A DNA stretch of 64,000 bases. Origin: Acinetobacter calcoaceticus. GTDB taxonomy: Bacteria > Pseudomonadota > Gammaproteobacteria > Pseudomonadales > Moraxellaceae. Numbering within the stretch: the stretch's first letter is position 1; every line of letters begins with the position of its first letter. Location of the stretch: NCBI RefSeq assembly GCF_900520355.1, contig NZ_LS999521.1, forward strand, positions 992,001 through 1,056,000, in the 5' to 3' direction. Shown here in pieces: positions 39,851 through 48,072 of this stretch. The notes beneath the pieces were generated by a model, which was not told where the DNA came from, made no database searches, and saw only the letters and a program-made list of their open reading frames with translations. A program made the position numbers and the translations under genes.

Positions 39851-40101
39851 AATTTTTCCTTATAAATTCTTTATATATGCTATGAAATTTTACAATTTAT
39901 TGATTAAAAAATATGTCATTATTATAGGGAATTTAGGGATAAGACAGAATAGATCAATAACAAAAGAGGGAGACTAAATAATTCATTTTAAATACCCTTA
40001 ACCTAACTTAACGATGTAAATTATTCTTTCTAATTATAATATTATTGGTGATTTCAAGAATTTGCCTTCCCTAATAATTCTAATTTACTGTAGAGGTGAA
40101 A

Positions 40102-41322
40102 ATGAAAAATAGCAAAACAATAAATTCTATAACGCATTCAATATTAATTATGGGAGCAGTGATTTCTAGTGTAGGCGTACTAAGCATTAGCTCGGCTTTT
40201 GCACAAGATCAACTAAATGCTGAATATAAGCCTGGCAATATCATTTATGATAAATGGGATAGATTTTATAAGATCGAACAATCTCAACCAGCAGAAGCTG
40301 AGAAAATATTAATCGAGCTAAGCAAGCTGACACCAACAGATATTAAAGTCTGGAAAAGCCTAACTTATTTACAAATTCGGCTTGAAAAGAGAGAAGAGGC
40401 TTTACAAAGCTTAAAACAAGCAAGAAATTTGGCTCCTCAAGATGATACCTTAAAACTACAAGAAGCTTATTTGCTTAATCAGCAAAAAAAGAATCGCGAA
40501 GCATTAGTTTTATTTAAAGAGTTAACGTCATCTTCAGATCCTGCAATTGCTGATAAAGCCAATCAGGCAGTTAAAAATTTAAGTGGTGGAGAGGTCAAAA
40601 CTTATTTCCGTGATGTTTATTTTGCACCTTCATATGAGTCACGTTACGACGATGTAATTTTTCCACTCAAAGCCCGTTATGGTAAGAACTTTGATAATGG
40701 CCGAGCACAAGTATATGGCTTTTTAAACCTAAACCGTGACACTCAATCTCAAGGCGGTGTACGACCAGAAATTATTGATGAAAACGCGGTAACTTTAGGG
40801 ATAGGGGCTAATTATCAACCTTGGACTTCAATCCCTGTGCGTGCATATCTAGAAGTTGGTGGAAGTTACGATCTGATTGATCGAAATAGAGATAAATTTC
40901 GTGAAAGTGTTGTCGGTGGGGTCACTGGTTATCAAGAGTGGTATTCTCAAAATAATTGTAATCATTCACTTTGCTTTAATGATTACTTCACTGATTTATA
41001 TGGCAATGCAGCGACTTATTCTAGAGAAGATTATAACGTTATTGGGGATTTGCGCTTACGTACAGGCTTAAATGTCTATAAAGGTGAGAATGGAACTGTG
41101 CAGGCTTATGTGAAATTGCATGGCTTAGCCGATAGTAAAGATGAATATTACAATAATTTATTTGAATATGGCCCTGGTATTTCGTGGCAGCCTTTTAATT
41201 ATCAACCTATAAAATTACGTGTTGAACGACTCTACGGCAATTACTTTAAAGATGTACCAATAGATACAAAAGATCATTACAACAATACGCGAGTAGAACT
41301 CGTATTTTATAAGGATTTCTAA
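40102..41322 (+). CDS. TPR and beta-barrel outer-membrane protein, NfrA/BcsC/PgaA-like
   Basis: 406 residues from the ATG at 40102 (GAGGTG four bases before; GTG 40096 rejected). Signal peptide ends near SSAFA. The region about 45-165 is a helical TPR-like domain (WKSLTYLQIRLEKREEALQSLKQARNLAPQDDTLKLQEAYL). From about residue 175 it becomes a beta-barrel with aromatic-rich strands and ends KDF, a typical outer-membrane terminal Phe. The C-terminal part resembles the barrel of the phage N4 receptor NfrA. Predicted to export the polymer made by the genes to its right. wecB begins two bases after the stop. Confidence 0.82.
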   Translation: MKNSKTINSITHSILIMGAVISSVGVLSISSAFAQDQLNAEYKPGNIIYDKWDRFYKIEQSQPAEAEKILIELSKLTPTDIKVWKSLTYLQIRLEKREEALQSLKQARNLAPQDDTLKLQEAYLLNQQKKNREALVLFKELTSSSDPAIADKANQAVKNLSGGEVKTYFRDVYFAPSYESRYDDVIFPLKARYGKNFDNGRAQVYGFLNLNRDTQSQGGVRPEIIDENAVTLGIGANYQPWTSIPVRAYLEVGGSYDLIDRNRDKFRESVVGGVTGYQEWYSQNNCNHSLCFNDYFTDLYGNAATYSREDYNVIGDLRLRTGLNVYKGENGTVQAYVKLHGLADSKDEYYNNLFEYGPGISWQPFNYQPIKLRVERLYGNYFKDVPIDTKDHYNNTRVELVFYKDF

Positions 41323-41323
41323 A

Positions 41324-42466
41324 ATGAAGAAAATTTTTATATCTATTGTATTTGGAACCCGTCCTGAATTAATCAAACTTGCTCCTGTTATTTTATTGGC
41401 AAAACAGGATTCACGTTTTCAAGTTGAAGTCATTTTTACTGGACAACATGATGAATTGGTCAGGGATGCGATAGATTTCTTTGGGGTTGAAATTGACCAC
41501 CGCCTTAAAATTATGAATGCTGGACAAAGTCTAAATCAATTATTAATACATGGTTTAAGTCAAATCGAACAAGTATATACCGATGGTCAAAAAAGAGATG
41601 CTATCGTTATTCAGGGTGATACAACGACTGTTTTAGCGGCAGGGTTAGTCGCGTTCTCAATGAAAGTTCCTGTTGCGCATGTCGAAGCAGGTTTGCGTTC
41701 TTATGATTTAGATCATCCTTTTCCAGAAGAAGGAAATCGTCAGTTAGTTTCTCGTATTACTAAATGGCATTTTGCTCCGACTGAACAATCAAAAAGAAAT
41801 CTACTCAATGAACAAATTTCACCAGAGCTTATTACTGTTACAGGCAATACCGTTGTTGATGCTGTGTATTTAGGACGTAAATTAATTTCTGAAAAATCAG
41901 GTTTGAAAAATCAGCTAGAACCTTATGGAATTCAATTAAAGCAAGATGATAAAGTTGTGCTTATTACGGCCCACCGCCGTGAAAATTTTGGAGATGGAAT
42001 TCAAAATATTTGTAATGCAGTTGAGCATTTAGCGAATGGACATCCTAATTTACATTTTATTTGGCCAGTCCATTTAAACCCTGCCGTACATGATGTTGTC
42101 CATAATAAGTTTAAAGATCATTCCCAAATTCATCTTGTTAAACCATTAGACTACCCAAGTCTATTGGCAGTCATAGACCGATCTACTTTTATTTTGACAG
42201 ATTCGGGTGGCCTGCAAGAAGAGAGTCCATCATTTAATAAGCCAGTTTTGATCCTGCGAGACACCACAGAACGACCTGAAGTTGTTGAAGTGGGGGCAGG
42301 TGTTTTAGTCGGTACAAACCAACAAAAAATTATTGAAGAAGCTGAAAAGCTAATTAATAACCAACAGCATTATGAAAAAATGGCCCATGTAGAAAATCCA
42401 TTTGGTGACGGACAAGCTGCTCAGCGTATTCTTGACCAAATTGCGCAATCTTATGAATTAGCATAA
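41324..42466 (+). CDS. wecB: UDP-N-acetylglucosamine 2-epimerase (non-hydrolysing)
   Basis: Converts UDP-GlcNAc to UDP-ManNAc. 380 residues: VFGTRPELIKLAPVI at the N-terminus, VIQGDTTTVLAAGLVAF, VEAGLRSYD, the catalytic/allosteric motif AHRRENFGDG and DSGGLQEESP. In E. coli WecB is NfrC, needed for phage N4 entry because it supplies the ManNAc polysaccharide NGR. Here it lies directly after an NfrA-like gene rather than in an ECA cluster, which supports a dedicated role in making the polymer. Its 3' end overlaps the convergent gene by 16 bases. Confidence 0.95.
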   Translation: MKKIFISIVFGTRPELIKLAPVILLAKQDSRFQVEVIFTGQHDELVRDAIDFFGVEIDHRLKIMNAGQSLNQLLIHGLSQIEQVYTDGQKRDAIVIQGDTTTVLAAGLVAFSMKVPVAHVEAGLRSYDLDHPFPEEGNRQLVSRITKWHFAPTEQSKRNLLNEQISPELITVTGNTVVDAVYLGRKLISEKSGLKNQLEPYGIQLKQDDKVVLITAHRRENFGDGIQNICNAVEHLANGHPNLHFIWPVHLNPAVHDVVHNKFKDHSQIHLVKPLDYPSLLAVIDRSTFILTDSGGLQEESPSFNKPVLILRDTTERPEVVEVGAGVLVGTNQQKIIEEAEKLINNQQHYEKMAHVENPFGDGQAAQRILDQIAQSYELA

Positions 42467-43374
42467 TGATGAGTTAAAGATTTATTCTCACTTATGGAAG
42501 TGTTGTTGGTATCGCCATAAGTGAGGCGATACCACAAGCTAACAATATTGACGGACCAACGATTCATATAGTGAGGTCCATCAAAAATATAGACAGTTTT
42601 TCCTTCATATGCTTTTAATTGAGAAATAATTTCCCAAGGATATGCGGCTCTAAATTGCCCATTCTTTTTAACTCTAAAGGCTTCTAGTACTATAATTACT
42701 TTATCTTTCCCAAGCTTTTGTTCAAGTTGGTCTAAAATATGTTTGGCTTGCTGAGGAGATCGTACACCTACGCCAACTCCGTCTTGGAAGAAAACACCGT
42801 TATGTTCTGGTAGCCAGCTTTTAACCCATAAATCATAATGTTCAGGTTCGCGTTCACCACTATAAATACTCACCCAAACTGGTACTGGAAGTTTATTTAA
42901 AACCTGACCTAAAGCACTTACTCTTAACCAAGTAGGATCTGCTTCCACTGGAAAATAATAACCTTTAGGCACCGTTTTTTGCTCTTTTATAATTTCGGCA
43001 GATTTTTCACCTAACTCAGTTACATTTGCGCGAGCTTTGGGTTCATTATATTCGCCGGCTAAGCCCAATATTAGATTTTTAGCCCATGGCTCTTGTCTAA
43101 TTTTCTCTAAACTAATTGCTTTTTCCCATTGAGGAAAGTTCGACTCTTTCCACCATGATTTAGACTCAACAACAGACCATTGGGGAACAAATGTATTAAC
43201 GCCCAAGTAGTGCCAGTTTCCCTCTGGTGGGGTCGTGTTATTGTCGGGCTGCCAGAAAATTCCTTCAATGTGAGGGGCTTGTCCTTGATGCTTGAACAAC
43301 CCCGCATAAGCTATAAAACTACATATAATTAAAATAATAAAAGCAGCTATTTTAATTGGTATCTGTTTTCTCAT
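42451..43374 (-). CDS. Periplasmic TIM-barrel-like protein, glycoside-hydrolase-like
   Basis: 307 residues with an N-terminal membrane anchor/signal helix (about 8-26) and an exported domain: GIFWQPDNNTTPPEGNWHYLGVNTF, GYYFPVEADPTWLR, PVPVWVSIYSGER, GVFFQDGVGVGVRSPQQAKHIL and IIVLEAFR. The pattern of strand-ending Trp/Glu/Asp residues looks like a TIM barrel similar to DUF4434/GH-like domains; this is a resemblance, not a proven family. It overlaps the BcsB-like gene by 23 bases and is the last gene of the five-gene operon. It may trim or release the polysaccharide. Confidence 0.65.
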   Translation of the reverse strand: MRKQIPIKIAAFIILIICSFIAYAGLFKHQGQAPHIEGIFWQPDNNTTPPEGNWHYLGVNTFVPQWSVVESKSWWKESNFPQWEKAISLEKIRQEPWAKNLILGLAGEYNEPKARANVTELGEKSAEIIKEQKTVPKGYYFPVEADPTWLRVSALGQVLNKLPVPVWVSIYSGEREPEHYDLWVKSWLPEHNGVFFQDGVGVGVRSPQQAKHILDQLEQKLGKDKVIIVLEAFRVKKNGQFRAAYPWEIISQLKAYEGKTVYIFDGPHYMNRWSVNIVSLWYRLTYGDTNNTSISENKSLTHHYANS

Positions 43375-45196
43375 TATTTCGTCTTAACCAGTACCACAAG
43401 AAGATAATTATTATCATAATTGCAGAGATAATCACAACTAATAAGAAGAAAGATGATTGTTGGACTAAAGGTGCTTTTTGATTTCCGACAATGAGCTTTT
43501 GTAGAACATAAATATTTCCATTTTCTGAAACCAACATTTTGGTGACATTATTTGGAATTTTATGCTGTATTTTCCCCCATAAATGCATAAAGGTTTGTGC
43601 GCCACCTTCTGAATCGGTAATAACATCGAAACGGTTGTTGTCATAACTCACAATAAAACCATTAACAGCAGCAGGTGAATAAATAATATCTTGATGCATT
43701 AAGACTTGTTGCTGGTAGATGTCTTTATTCACTCGGACATTTATTGACTGTGGCGTGCTGGGGGTATAACGGACTAGATTTAAAGGCATGGGTGCTTGTG
43801 TTAAAAGCATCTTTTTTGCAACTTGACCTAGAACAATAGCAATATTTAATGCCCCAGATTGATCATCAATTGCAATCGTCGGGGTCGTTGCTAAAGTCAT
43901 GGAAATTGCAGCTACTCCATTTTTGAGTTTATGGGGGAGTTTTACAGTAGATTTAGCTGTATCAATCCAGAGTGAACCATGGGCATTGGGTAGACATTGA
44001 GAGTTGGCAATTACGGAGTTTTCAAGTTTTAAGCTGAAATTTGTTGTATTTGAAATATTTTTAGCAAAAATATTAAATTGCCTATTTACTGGATCTGAAG
44101 CAAGATCAGCCGTTTTCATGCTTCCTGCTAGTCCACCATCAATCCATGCCGTAATATTTGAACCTTGTAATAGCCCACTTTGAATACGAAGAGCAATTTG
44201 CCCTTGTAAGATATCTGTTGGTTGCCACACCGCAGGGAAGTCAAGAAATAGATTCTTTTCAGCATGGTTTAATCTAAAATCTTCAATTCCTAAGTCTGAA
44301 AGTGTTTCAATTTTTTTAAATTGGGCCCATGTCGGGTTTGAAATAGTAGTGGGGAAAATTGCACTGCTAGTATTTAATTGTTGGACATACAATGGGTTAA
44401 TTAGTCCATTTATGGCAGCAGTGAGTTCTTGTTGACTGTGATAGGTAATTGATAGGGTTGCTACTCCTTCATTTGGTTTTGCAATCTGTACTAAAGCTCC
44501 ACCTTTAAGTGGAGTGGATGAATGAATAACTTCAATAATAAAATTCGTTTCAGGATTTAAGTTAGTTTGCCCAGAGTCAACCCACTCAATTGGAGTTACA
44601 GAACCCCATGAGCTTGCTAATCTAGCGAGCATGGAGGCTTCTATAATTTCTTTACGGTTATATTTTAAAATTCCAACAAAAGAGGTAGGTCGTCTAGCTT
44701 GCGGATTAAATAAAGCATCTGGTAAGTATTTTAGCTGATAGTCCTTTCGAATGGGTACAAAGTCGATTTGGGAATTATTGAAGTAGGTTAAGTGATCAAT
44801 ATCTTCAGAACAGAAAGATTCCTTTGTTCTGTTAAGTGTTGATGGTTTAGCATATTGTTGAATAATAAAATCTAATCGATGAAAACCGCTTTGACTTTTA
44901 GGAATATCAAACTTTAATTGGCCATCACCATTTAAGGTAGTGTTATAGATGAGTTTGTCATCATATTTAACCAATAAAGTTGTATCATTTTCAGTAGAGT
45001 AGTTACTTGAAAATTGAATATTTTCCCATTCTGCACCTTTCCCAATATAGAAGAAATGAGGCTCGACCGTATATTTGGTGGAGGTACTAATATCGTCTAG
45101 TTCCCAAGTATATGCATGAGCAGACATGGCTAACATTAGACTGGTGCTGGCAAGGAGCACTTGTACCGTTTGGTAAAGGTCAAAAGTCTTTTTCAT
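43352..45196 (-). CDS. BcsB-like periplasmic polysaccharide synthase subunit
   Basis: 614 residues: signal peptide (ending near AHA), a long periplasmic region of alternating carbohydrate-binding-like and ferredoxin-like domains, and a C-terminal transmembrane tail (about 585-608) before a basic tail. The overall plan and phrases such as YTVEPHFFYIGKGAEW and SKSQSGFHRLDF fit the BcsB family, which guides cellulose through the periplasm and stabilises BcsA. Start overlaps the GT gene stop as ATGA, matching the co-translated BcsA-BcsB logic. Other BcsB homologs exist outside cellulose loci. Confidence 0.82.
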   Translation of the reverse strand: MKKTFDLYQTVQVLLASTSLMLAMSAHAYTWELDDISTSTKYTVEPHFFYIGKGAEWENIQFSSNYSTENDTTLLVKYDDKLIYNTTLNGDGQLKFDIPKSQSGFHRLDFIIQQYAKPSTLNRTKESFCSEDIDHLTYFNNSQIDFVPIRKDYQLKYLPDALFNPQARRPTSFVGILKYNRKEIIEASMLARLASSWGSVTPIEWVDSGQTNLNPETNFIIEVIHSSTPLKGGALVQIAKPNEGVATLSITYHSQQELTAAINGLINPLYVQQLNTSSAIFPTTISNPTWAQFKKIETLSDLGIEDFRLNHAEKNLFLDFPAVWQPTDILQGQIALRIQSGLLQGSNITAWIDGGLAGSMKTADLASDPVNRQFNIFAKNISNTTNFSLKLENSVIANSQCLPNAHGSLWIDTAKSTVKLPHKLKNGVAAISMTLATTPTIAIDDQSGALNIAIVLGQVAKKMLLTQAPMPLNLVRYTPSTPQSINVRVNKDIYQQQVLMHQDIIYSPAAVNGFIVSYDNNRFDVITDSEGGAQTFMHLWGKIQHKIPNNVTKMLVSENGNIYVLQKLIVGNQKAPLVQQSSFFLLVVIISAIMIIIIFLWYWLRRNNEKTDTN

Positions 45197-46446
45197 TTGT
45201 TTTTCTCCTTGCTACGTTCCGTTTTGTACCATTGAAGGGAGTTACCCTGTATTTTATTTTTAAGCATGTCATATGCGGCTTTAAATACAATAAATAGAAA
45301 AATTTGTGAGTAACTTACATAAGACAAAACAGAGTAAAAATAGAGTTCTGCTTTAACTTTTTCTAAAGAAAGGGTAAACCACATTTGTGCTACATATAAG
45401 CAAAATGAAAGACCCCACAAAGTGGTAAATGGCCCCGGAACTGAAATACCTGCAATACCAAGTAAGCCCAAAGTTAAGGTGATATGGCTCCAGAATAACG
45501 CGGGTACGAAAAGTACGTAGCACATAATGTTATTCAGAATTTCAATTCCGATGGGAAAAGGTGTTCTTAACGCTACAGGTAGATATTTACGGGTCACATA
45601 AAAATTACCTTGAGTCCAACGTGAGCGTTGTTTAACAAATACGCTTAAAGAGGGTGGATCTTGTTGCCAGCCAATTGCATAGGGTACCCATTTAATTCGT
45701 TTCTGGCCGATAAAAATCCGGAAGCTCATTTCAGTGTCATCAACCAATGACTTCTCATCAAAACCGCCCAAGGTTTCTAACGCATCACGCCAAATAACAT
45801 AGTTAGTACCCATGAGCGTGGATAGTTGGAAACGTTGCCAACGTCCGCCTTGAAAAATCCATTGGAAAAAGATGAACTCAATGGCAATAAAGCGAGTCAA
45901 AATACTATCTTGCCAATTACGGGTTCTTACTTTGCCATTTACAGCCACTAATTTTTTATCGGCAATGAGGGTCTGAGCTAATAACCGTACGCAATTGGGT
46001 TCGGGTGTACTGTCCGCATCATAGACAACAATGAGTTCACCTTTGGCATGGGGTAGGCCATTATTAAGTGTTCTAGATTTACCTTTGCCTCCCATTCCTT
46101 TCGGAACATTTACAATTTTTATGCAAGGATAAATCTGCGCTAGATTTTCGGCAATTTCTAGGGTGTTATCTTTAGAGCCGTCATTAATGAGCAAAACTTC
46201 ATATGCTTCGGCTGGATAATCCTGTTGAGCGATGGCATGTAAAGTATCTTCAATCACTACGCCTTCATTATAGGCAGGAATCAGAACACTCAAAACGGGC
46301 CATCTATCTGGCACAGGCAGGTTCTGCAACTCTTTTTCTGCTGTTTTTGAATATTTCCAAGCCTGATAACTTAACCATGCCCAAAATGCTTGAGGAATCC
46401 AGATGCCTAAGAAACCGAATAGGAAGAGAATATCAATGGGAGCCAT
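45193..46446 (-). CDS. Processive GT2 glycosyltransferase (polysaccharide synthase)
   Basis: 417 residues. One N-terminal helix, a GT2 catalytic domain with Asp89 (NDG), DAD at 143-145, acidic DDTE at 236-239 and QRSRW at 273-277, then three or four membrane helices to about residue 390. This is the layout of BcsA/PgaC/NfrB-type synthases that polymerise and secrete sugar through the membrane. No PilZ domain or MshEN domain is present, so c-di-GMP binding, if any, must come from another protein. Overlaps both neighbours; operon third gene. Confidence 0.92.
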   Translation of the reverse strand: MAPIDILFLFGFLGIWIPQAFWAWLSYQAWKYSKTAEKELQNLPVPDRWPVLSVLIPAYNEGVVIEDTLHAIAQQDYPAEAYEVLLINDGSKDNTLEIAENLAQIYPCIKIVNVPKGMGGKGKSRTLNNGLPHAKGELIVVYDADSTPEPNCVRLLAQTLIADKKLVAVNGKVRTRNWQDSILTRFIAIEFIFFQWIFQGGRWQRFQLSTLMGTNYVIWRDALETLGGFDEKSLVDDTEMSFRIFIGQKRIKWVPYAIGWQQDPPSLSVFVKQRSRWTQGNFYVTRKYLPVALRTPFPIGIEILNNIMCYVLFVPALFWSHITLTLGLLGIAGISVPGPFTTLWGLSFCLYVAQMWFTLSLEKVKAELYFYSVLSYVSYSQIFLFIVFKAAYDMLKNKIQGNSLQWYKTERSKEKNK

Positions 46447-47329
46447 TTGATTTAACCCTCCTAATAATAGACGAGATCAGCAATAACAATAAAATCACCC
46501 CGATCACCAAGGAGATCCATGAAATATAGCTGCCGAAGGTGCCAAGAAGGTCTGGATAGGTAGTGGTTAAAATAAGATCAAGTGGAACTACGACTGTGCT
46601 TAAACCAATAAAAATATACCCAAGGAAACTAGTGTTTATATGTTCAGGAGTGCTTATGTATTTAATATTATTAAATTTCCATGAAATTCCGAGTTGAGGA
46701 TATCGAATATTTGTGGTCGGTAGATCTGAAGGAGGGTTAATGATAATTTCATAACCCGAAACATGACCATTAAAACTTTTAGCTGAATAGAATAAATGCT
46801 GCTTTTGTCTAATTTCTCTAGAAGGCAGAGGGAGTTCTTGTGAATTAAACTGAACAATATAGCTGCCAGCAGTTTGTGAAATTAAGTTTTCATCCCAGCC
46901 TGTTGAAACAAAAGCAGCCATAGGCCGTAAACCAATTGCAGTCGAAAATGTAGCTTTGGCGGCAAAATATTGAGGTTGTTCTGATTTAAAAATTGCAATG
47001 GGAATAGCACCTTGGCTCACTGCTTCTTTTAATAAGAAATAGTGAGAAAAGCTAAAAACCTCATCTGGTAATATGATGCCTGGCTTTATTCCTTTTTGAA
47101 TAAGACCTTGAAAACTATCCGAACTGATTTGGTCAATTGTAAAAATAGGCCACCACGTATCCTGTGATGGGAAAAACATAGAAAGGTCATTAATATTCTG
47201 AATTTCGGTTTTTGTTTGTTCAGCTTTAACTTCACAGTGATAATATTGACGATAAAACTGCTGTAAAGTGCCATCTGGATATTGACTAGAGGCGATAATA
47301 ATTCCACAAATATTAAGAAGATTAGTCAT
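46433..47329 (-). CDS. Membrane protein of the exopolysaccharide operon, unknown
   Basis: Not recognised. 298 residues: a soluble alpha/beta N-terminal region (about 1-225) with ICGIIIASSQYPDG, RPMAAFVSTGWDEN and FNGHVSGYEIIINPP, then two C-terminal membrane helices (about 228-250 and 262-287) and a basic end. No sugar-enzyme motif was found. The start shares a base with the upstream stop (TAATG), and the 3' end overlaps the GT gene by 14 bases, so it is translated together with both. Possibly a partner of the synthase. Function unknown. Confidence 0.75.
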   Translation of the reverse strand: MTNLLNICGIIIASSQYPDGTLQQFYRQYYHCEVKAEQTKTEIQNINDLSMFFPSQDTWWPIFTIDQISSDSFQGLIQKGIKPGIILPDEVFSFSHYFLLKEAVSQGAIPIAIFKSEQPQYFAAKATFSTAIGLRPMAAFVSTGWDENLISQTAGSYIVQFNSQELPLPSREIRQKQHLFYSAKSFNGHVSGYEIIINPPSDLPTTNIRYPQLGISWKFNNIKYISTPEHINTSFLGYIFIGLSTVVVPLDLILTTTYPDLLGTFGSYISWISLVIGVILLLLLISSIIRRVKSNGSH

Positions 47330-48072
47330 TAAGTAATCTCCTCTTCAGGTGGAATTTGAATAATTTGATATTCCACTTCAAGCCGCAACGTCATAATTTC
47401 TTTTAGCTTTTTTATAAAATCTGGTTCTTCAACCGTTTTTTGCTTACGAATTACAATACTGTATATATTCTCCAGATCATCGTCGGCAAATTGAAAAATA
47501 ATTTCTTGTGGTTGATGTTGACTCAAAATTTTAATCATTTCATTTTGAGTGGTTTTCCATACATCATCGCCTAACATTTCTTTAATTAAGCTTCGGTTTA
47601 GAATCTTGATTTTAAAGACTTCATAGTCTTTTAAATGGTGATGATCAAGAAGTTTAAAAAAACTACGTTGAAAATATTTGAGGGCGCTAAGCGGGAAAAT
47701 ATCACGGCGATAATTTCGATCATAACTTTGAATGTCACGGTATTTTTGAACATTAATTTCAATATTGTGGCGTACAGCACTAAGAAAAAGAGGAATCAGA
47801 GGAATAATAAAAAGTAAAAGGAGCTGACGTTCAATATGTGTTTGTGCTCCTAGGTCGAGTAGGAAATATACTGCCACGCCTACGAAAGCGATTAAACCAA
47901 CAATTAAAGATGCACCGACTTCTAAAAAAGCACCAGAAATTAAAAGAATAAGAATAAAAATCCAGCTTCCTCTAAAGCTTACAGGCAACCACTCATATGC
48001 CACCATTCCCATAAAGAGGTGAGCTGCGATAATCCATAAGACGAGTGTTCTTCCTGGGTTCTTTTGTTGCAT
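47329..48072 (-). CDS. Membrane protein with possible degenerate GGDEF domain (PelD-like)
   Basis: 247 residues, first gene of the five-gene operon. Three or four membrane helices in the first 105 residues, then a cytosolic alpha/beta region (about 115-247) with FPLSALKYFQRSFFKLLDHHHLKDYEVFKIKILN, VWKTTQNEMIKIL and EIIFQFADDDLENIYSIVI. Its strand/helix order is like a degenerate GGDEF domain lacking the active site, as in the c-di-GMP receptor PelD, but no I-site RxxD is apparent. The assignment is tentative. It shares a base with the next gene. Confidence 0.62.
   Translation of the reverse strand: MQQKNPGRTLVLWIIAAHLFMGMVAYEWLPVSFRGSWIFILILLISGAFLEVGASLIVGLIAFVGVAVYFLLDLGAQTHIERQLLLLFIIPLIPLFLSAVRHNIEINVQKYRDIQSYDRNYRRDIFPLSALKYFQRSFFKLLDHHHLKDYEVFKIKILNRSLIKEMLGDDVWKTTQNEMIKILSQHQPQEIIFQFADDDLENIYSIVIRKQKTVEEPDFIKKLKEIMTLRLEVEYQIIQIPPEEEIT

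Follow-up and report, generated by a model that had tools for sequence, protein, structure and literature searches.

A phage glycan receptor locus of Acinetobacter calcoaceticus that looks like a Pss-type synthase in Nfr-type envelope parts, with a possible link to capsule precursor supply

A window of 64,000 nucleotides from Acinetobacter calcoaceticus (contig NZ_LS999521.1, positions 992001-1056000 of a 3.93-Mb single-contig genome) holds seven genes at 40102-48072 of the window. They are pgrA-G, which McCalla et al. 2025 (PMC12507263) described under the name PGR ("phage glycan receptor") locus. It is very probable that PgrC, a glycosyltransferase of family 2 (GT2) of the kind present in the Listeria Pss system, makes a polymer of N-acetylmannosamine (ManNAc), which is exported via parts of the Escherichia coli Nfr type and acts as a phage receptor at the cell surface. 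With a good deal less assurance, we lean towards the view that PGR is a Gram-negative form of Pss in an Nfr-type envelope, freed from cyclic di-GMP (c-di-GMP), that its epimerase is exchangeable with that of the capsule, and that UDP-ManNAc from the capsule (K) locus feeds the receptor in lineages without pgrF. The locus itself has already been described; our additions are the kinship with Pss and the capsule link. An earlier note on this DNA, made from the sequence alone, implied that the gene set was new, a claim that falls because PGR is already in print (PMC12507263).

Results

The seven open reading frames (ORFs) form two convergent units, one of two plus-strand genes and one of five minus-strand genes (Table 1), and the ORF list confirms the coordinates given in the earlier note. 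The start of pgrF lies two bases past the end of pgrG, leaving a gap of one base, as that note had described for its wecB and NfrA-like genes. Neighboring minus-strand genes overlap by 1, 14, 4 and 23 bases in the order from pgrA to pgrE, in agreement with the overlaps of 1-23 bases previously claimed; a tail-to-tail overlap of 16 bases between the two units (42451-42466) had not been recorded. The pgrG ORF has an alternative GTG start at 40096, in addition to the ATG at 40102. All seven genes match the products described for PGR, namely a pseudo-GGDEF protein, PgrB, a GT2, a BcsB-like protein, a TIM-barrel protein, WecB and an outer-membrane porin. The published locus comes from the same genus; its products agree for every gene but pgrB, whose product goes unnamed in the main text of PMC12507263, and no structural difference was found. 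PgrC of this locus is 96.6% identical to PgrC in four Acinetobacter baumannii records and 97-98% identical to copies in A. calcoaceticus and its relatives. An Rfam scan detected a tRNA and no other RNA family. Scans for promoters (23 promoter-like sites versus 29.5 in shuffles) and terminators (7 terminator-like sites versus 5.3 in shuffles) gave nothing that we would claim as either.

Table 1. Genes of the PGR locus, with positions in the window
Gene	Coordinates	Strand	Product and features
pgrG	40102..41322	+	N-terminal hydrophobic segment, tetratricopeptide repeats (TPR) and presumed C-terminal outer-membrane beta-barrel; putative export porin
pgrF	41324..42466	+	wecB; non-hydrolysing UDP-N-acetylglucosamine (UDP-GlcNAc) 2-epimerase, yielding UDP-ManNAc
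pgrE	42451..43374	-	TIM-barrel-like, N-terminal membrane anchor; YbcH (DUF4434) relative
pgrD	43352..45196	-	BcsB-like, C-terminal membrane anchor (hydrophobic 582-600)
pgrC	45193..46446	-	Processive GT2 polymerase/translocator; 417 aa; PF13641 1.2e-31
pgrB	46433..47329	-	Soluble domain and C-terminal pair of membrane segments
pgrA	47329..48072	-	Membrane helices (four by model, three by hydropathy) and pseudo-GGDEF domain without GGDEF motif or I-site

Published genetics tie this locus to phage infection. Mutants of A. baumannii that escaped phage StAb3 carried insertions in pgrD or a single-nucleotide polymorphism (SNP) in pgrF, complementation restored infection and deletion of pgrD abolished adsorption (PMC12507263). 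When 39 more clinical isolates were challenged with StAb3, 31 were infected, and in the 8 that were not the PGR locus was missing or disrupted; of 994 complete A. baumannii genomes, 958 had at least a partial PGR locus (PMC12507263). The same authors proposed a ManNAc-containing polymer as the product, likened PgrA to diguanylate cyclases with the catalytic motif missing and termed PgrD a BcsB homologue (PMC12507263); the name "phage glycan receptor" is also used in a 2026 review (PMC13018119). The phage-receptor role that the earlier note had suggested agrees with the need of StAb3 for pgrD and pgrF, and its suggestion of a ManNAc-containing surface polymer accords with both these genetics and the comparisons below.

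Outside PGR loci, the best matches of PgrC in PLSDB (72,556 plasmid records, some of them chromosome-sized) were proteins of Listeria innocua and Listeria monocytogenes (39% identity, 99% of the query, E ~1e-76), followed by Enterococcus faecalis (41%) and Priestia (35%). The reverse search, from Listeria PssC, placed the Acinetobacter PGR synthases (39%, E 2e-71) right behind Listeria and E. faecalis, with the lactobacilli (31%) ranking below them. Pairwise BLASTP identities of PgrC with the E. coli enzymes were 27% for PgaC, 23% for BcsA and 22% for NfrB. A tree of glycosyltransferases (GTs), which leaves out 7 of the 13 GT paralogues, placed PgrC and the enzymes of Listeria, E. faecalis and Priestia in one group (89/97, not starred) that excludes PgaC and the paralogues. 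Sequence comparison strongly suggests that, within the collection covered and outside PGR loci, the nearest relative of PgrC is the Pss synthase of Listeria and not NfrB or PgaC. The label of processive GT2 synthase, proposed previously, is borne out by the PF13641 match and by the DxD (residues 143-145), DDTE (236-239) and QRSRW (273-277) motifs, all invariant in 12 orthologues.

Beyond the synthase there is a thinner likeness to Pss. The Listeria neighborhood is annotated as membrane protein, DUF2334 protein, GT2, BcsB and diguanylate cyclase, which fits the pssA-E operon (PMC4125290). Both systems have a BcsB-type partner, putative in the case of PgrD, and a membrane protein with a degenerate GGDEF domain, and the known Pss product is a ManNAc chain, specifically a beta-1,4-linked ManNAc chain with alpha-1,6 galactose on alternate residues (PMC11439720, PMC5422440). 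There are also differences: the stretch of the Listeria operon examined contains neither outer-membrane parts nor a wecB, PssA is without a PGR relative, and the I-site of PssE (RTSD, residue 199) is missing from PgrA. The DUF2334 protein PssB, which we take to be of the NodB type, has a possible counterpart in PgrB, by fold only. A Pss-like gene group was also observed on an E. faecalis plasmid record, with a PssC relative at 69.5% and a PssE-like protein (27%, 1e-38) whose only RxxD motif in the part searched is at residue 223, away from the PssE I-site place.

An alternative is that the product is a polymer of GlcNAc or glucose, resembling poly-N-acetylglucosamine (PNAG) or cellulose, and that the adjacent wecB serves some other glycan. 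PgrC does score on the PgaC/IcaA (143.9 bits) and cellulose synthase (CelA, 74.6 bits) profiles, it has a BcsB-like partner, and WecB is no subunit of the machine. The cut-offs of these profiles, however, are 422.3 bits, far over the PgrC score, and 699.1 bits; PgrC is closer to Pss than to either PgaC or BcsA; a SNP in pgrF abolishes phage infection (PMC12507263); and all 54 PGR genomes hold a wecB over the family cut-off, with loss of pgrF tracking a second wecB, as set out below. We consider a GlcNAc or glucose polymer very improbable and a ManNAc polymer the better reading. The earlier note had asked whether the GT2 and BcsB-like proteins belong to a described pathway with a different product: a described pathway, Pss, does exist, but its product is of the same kind.

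The distribution of pgrF bears on the substrate of PgrC. PgrF scores 430.8 bits on TIGR00236 (cut-off 210.15) and matches PF02350 at 5.9e-113, and its earlier designation as wecB can be kept. The gene is intact in 37 of 53 comparable loci and lost or broken in 16. Fourteen loci show a clean loss, the aligned ends of pgrG and pgrE lying 6-62 bp apart; in one (genome G205, locus L116, best aligned pgrD piece 74%) a wecB remnant of 10% of the length lies between pgrG and pgrE; and in another (genome G044, locus L057) pgrF has an in-frame TAA while an intact wecB copy is present in the capsule locus. The environmental strain Acinetobacter venetianus RAG-1 (G056) is among those without pgrF, and the Acinetobacter baylyi genome analysed (G100) holds the complete locus, pgrF included. 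An Acinetobacter courvalinii locus (L165) also lacks pgrF. A second wecB of >500 bits on TIGR00236 was detected in 16 of the 16 genomes with a lost or broken pgrF, whereas 6 of the 37 genomes with an intact pgrF have a second wecB, of >400 bits; 26 of 121 PGR-negative genomes hold such a wecB. One genome with a >500-bit wecB, G156, was excluded from the count and the tree. Fisher's test for this association gave 5e-9. As the lineages are related, tree-based counts were made: on the locus tree there were 9 pgrF changes and 9 independent pairs, in 8-9 of which the second wecB went the same way and in none the opposite way (sign test, p 0.004-0.008). No pair was opposite in any of the four settings of tree and cut-off. 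The direction of the association is firm and its strength moderate.

Capsule-locus markers (FKBP, Poly_export, Wzz-kinase, or nucleotidyl transferase, UDP-sugar dehydrogenase and initiating sugar transferase, assigned from one representative per cluster) lie in the same stretch as the second wecB in 13 of the 16 genomes; in the other 3 (G158, G189 and G139) it belongs to a different cluster, which includes a Poly_export protein. A UDP-ManNAc dehydrogenase gene adjoins the second wecB in 10 of the 16, one representative scoring 694.7 bits (cut-off 459). That loss of one wecB tracks the presence of another supports UDP-ManNAc as the substrate, and does not fit the possibility, raised in the earlier note, that wecB is needed only for another glycan. 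The positions of these genes suggest that the capsule locus may supply UDP-ManNAc in species without pgrF. The same argument, of a wecB nearby or elsewhere, was made for nfrB by Junkermeier and Hengge (PMC8669469). In E. coli, deletion of wecC is reported to enhance the Nfr-linked motility defect, the cause given by the authors being more UDP-ManNAc.

It is also possible that this association is historical, reflecting lineages that happen to have both traits, and that no functional replacement has occurred. The losses are concentrated in one part of the tree, the median p of the sign test ranges from 0.004 to 0.0625 with the choice of tree and cut-off, and a wecB like the second copy above is also present in PGR-negative and pgrF-intact genomes. 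On the other hand, there were nine separate changes, including one (G131) within a 17-member clade whose other members retain pgrF, no pair ran in the opposite direction, and one wecB remnant and one stop codon indicate decay under way beside a second copy. We regard a purely historical association as unlikely, and exchange of the epimerase as the preferred explanation.

The proteins expected to hold the synthase show weaker relationships. Profile comparison of the PgrD family with Listeria PssD (BcsB) by hhalign gave E 1.1e-5 (probability 82, 387 columns), versus E 0.04 (probability 1.3) for E. coli BcsB. The BcsB Pfam family (PF03170) matched 1 of 14 PgrD family members, at 0.0017, and the PgrD of the window had no BcsB match in Pfam; PDB sequences gave no match to PgrD up to E 1, and the profile found two weak macroglobulin entries and no BcsB. 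Profile evidence of moderate strength suggests a kinship of PgrD with PssD, and the BcsB-like label of the earlier note is plausible, if remote.

For PgrA, a structure model predicts a GGDEF fold in the soluble domain. None of 14 diverse PgrA members has an RxxD motif at the I-site place, and past residue 105 the motif occurs elsewhere in 2 of 14 and 1 of 27 members; PgrA lacks the c-di-GMP I-site in the members examined. The absence of the motifs led us to discard the idea that PgrA is a diguanylate cyclase or an I-site receptor. For PgrB, CE4 folds top the list of PDB structures, and it is probably a divergent pseudo-deacetylase of the NodB/CE4 fold. Modelling suggests that the likeness of PgrA to PssE, and of PgrB to PssB, is one of fold only; direct sequence kinship within these pairs, or of either protein with PssA, was not found by pairwise or profile comparison. 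Neither PgrA nor PgrB has a Pfam match up to E 1. A search of 5.8 billion proteins at 1e-3 gave 209 PgrA and 71 PgrB matches, most of them without a name; a PgrA profile search gave at least 216 matches at E 1 when the 8000 candidates sharing most words were scored. In the first of these searches, the matches with a name among the best 120 of 209 for PgrA and among those for PgrB came from Acinetobacter or one Moraxellaceae metagenome-assembled genome (MAG), and on this basis we rejected the idea that these are widespread families.

PgrA could still sense c-di-GMP through another site and switch the synthase, as PssE does in Listeria. Consistent with this, a GGDEF fold stands beside a Pss-type synthase and has been retained despite loss of both the GGDEF motif and the I-site. 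The distribution of RxxD described above speaks against such a sensor; the motif has been termed indispensable for exopolysaccharide (EPS) production in the case of Bacillus subtilis YdaK, and the PssE-like protein of E. faecalis is likewise without RxxD at the I-site place. A sensory PgrA appears doubtful to us, and a structural role is preferred.

The envelope parts resemble those of Nfr in differing degrees. PgrG has a hydrophobic segment at residues 14-32, TPR matches below curated cut-offs (best TPR_19, 4.8e-5), a match to the PgaA profile (1.2e-4) that covers the TPR part, and a final phenylalanine in all 14 orthologues examined. The presumed TPR/barrel architecture is like that of NfrA, to which the earlier note had likened it, with no significant similarity of sequence (BLASTP E 0.28). 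The evidence for PgrE, which has a hydrophobic segment at residues 9-27, strongly suggests a relative of E. coli YbcH: the PgrE family aligned with YbcH by hhalign at E 7.1e-9 (probability 95.8), DUF4434 was detected in 11 of 13 family members at E <= 0.1, and the PgrE of the window matched DUF4434/PRK09936 under their cut-offs, all of which upholds the TIM-barrel-like description given before. PgrE matches the YbcH equivalog profile NF007404 at 1.8e-5, short of the cut-off of 344 bits, with E. coli YbcH itself scoring 520 bits; its profile found three weak unrelated entries only among PDB sequences.

Set against known machines, PGR shares with the E. coli N4 glycan receptor (NGR) system (nfrBA-ybcH plus wecB) a putative TPR/barrel exporter, a YbcH-like protein, a need for WecB and a role as phage receptor, and the NGR-type supply of UDP-ManNAc by WecB is matched by gene presence. 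It differs in that the GT2 of NfrB carries a fused MshEN domain for binding c-di-GMP (66.4 bits), no match to which was found in PgrC in Pfam or among the best 25 of 31 NCBIfam matches, and in that nfrBA-ybcH lacks BcsB-like, PgrA and PgrB genes. With Bcs and Pga it has in common a GT2, a BcsB-like partner (Bcs), a TPR/barrel porin and, by analogy, a TIM-barrel periplasmic part (PgaB), whereas PgrC has no PilZ match in Pfam, misses the PgaC equivalog cut-off and is farther from BcsA and PgaC than from PssC. The earlier note rightly held that the partners of the synthase are unlike both the NGR and the cellulose models. To judge from sequence, PGR seems to pair a synthase of the Pss type with envelope parts of the Nfr type.

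Within Acinetobacter, PgrC (E <= 1e-100) was detected in 54 of 175 genomes, and in 53 of them the genes run pgrA-B-C-D-E, with pgrG, and pgrF where present, convergent; the 54th has only pgrA-B-C. Because this arrangement recurs in 53 of 54 GT2-positive genomes, the gene set is more than a chance association, and the co-location that the earlier note had made a test is found in these genomes. In a set of 95 genomes of relatives, the same 17 have PgrB and a PgrC of at least 74%. Searched at 1e-45, samples drawn from the class (369 genomes) and from the phylum (398) returned only the genome of origin. A scan of 84,980 species genomes with two peptide patterns, whose reach is limited to close relatives, found 45 loci: 41 in Acinetobacter, one in Lampropedia hyalina (74%), two from one Moraxellaceae MAG and one weak match (23%). 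In L. hyalina the seven genes are collinear in the order G-F-A-B-C-D-E, with the pgrC frame interrupted in the draft; this order implies that the convergent units seen in Acinetobacter act together as a single module.

Several individual loci depart from the common form. In the Moraxellaceae MAG ~16 kb separate the two loci, and pgrE was not detected in one of them. PgrC was present on three Acinetobacter plasmid records of 159-258 kb, and the one examined, from Acinetobacter variabilis, also has neighboring PGR genes, beside biotin genes. In genome G053, pgrC has an in-frame TAG at residue 178 and the locus is probably inactive. Genome G156 (Acinetobacter genomosp. 15BJ) has a truncated pgrC, and pgrD-G were not found in the stretch examined. 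One locus (G208) has ~850 extra bases between pgrG and pgrE (a gap of 2010 versus ~1150) with an otherwise complete pgrF.

Discussion

Our results suggest the following mechanism. PgrF would convert UDP-GlcNAc to UDP-ManNAc, and PgrC, held in place by PgrD (BcsB-like) together with two membrane proteins, pseudo-GGDEF PgrA and NodB-like PgrB, would link ManNAc into a chain and push it across the inner membrane; PgrA and PgrB would be structural parts with no signalling or deacetylating function. The chain would pass YbcH-like PgrE in the periplasm, leave through the TPR/barrel of PgrG and serve on the surface as receptor for StAb3-type phages. In lineages without pgrF, UDP-ManNAc would come from the capsule pathway, where PGR may compete for it with the UDP-ManNAc dehydrogenase. 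We infer that the polymer contains ManNAc, that its linkage is beta-1,4 and that c-di-GMP is not required, and likewise infer what PgrA, B, E and G do.

A number of points weigh against this account. The PGR glycan is uncharacterised according to its discoverers (PMC12507263), and polymer production by loci without pgrF may be regarded as putative only. The claim of nearest relationship to Pss derives from one collection, PLSDB, with Firmicutes represented by its records, and NfrB and BcsA sit on very long branches of the GT tree, whose deep part is unsure. Relationships between the partner proteins are limited: PgrD and PssD are related moderately by profile and not by BLASTP (E 8.9), the matches of PgrA with PssE (E 0.032, probability 1.6) and PgrB with PssB (0.47) are not significant, and PgrG has no significant similarity to NfrA by BLASTP. 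No counterpart of PssA was detected: the unit contains no further gene, and the PgrA and PgrB families have no significant match to this 491-aa protein. The association of pgrF loss with a second wecB also weakens under other settings, with sign-test p values of 0.008-0.031 when all wecB genes over the family cut-off are counted (10 of 37 genomes, one with stops), 0.016-0.063 on a tree of flanking genes (42 of 53 loci) and 0.031-0.25 when both changes are combined.

Neither of our additions turned up in the literature covered. The words "Listeria", "pssE" and "deacetylase" are absent from the main text of PMC12507263, replacement of pgrF by a capsule wecB is not mentioned in its sections 11, 12 and 33, and no publication linking PGR with Listeria Pss was found by title and abstract opening among the open-access papers listed by our searches. 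What this analysis adds, the kinship with Pss and the link to the capsule, can be put to the test.

PGR is the receptor of StAb3, a broad-host-range phage of A. baumannii, and probably of its relatives. NGR, Pss and PGR now stand side by side as three ManNAc-polymer machines assembled from different parts, and the kinship with Pss provides a concrete structural hypothesis for the PGR glycan, a beta-1,4 ManNAc backbone, together with an enzyme tool for testing it, the Pss-specific glycosidase PssZ. If capsule loci supply the precursor, switching or loss of capsule would alter susceptibility to capsule-independent phages; production of the receptor in lineages without pgrF would depend on capsule type, and the deletion of a K locus that renders a strain acapsular would remove this receptor as well. 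Such a dependence would bear on phage cocktails that pair both receptors and on the interpretation of experiments with acapsular mutants.

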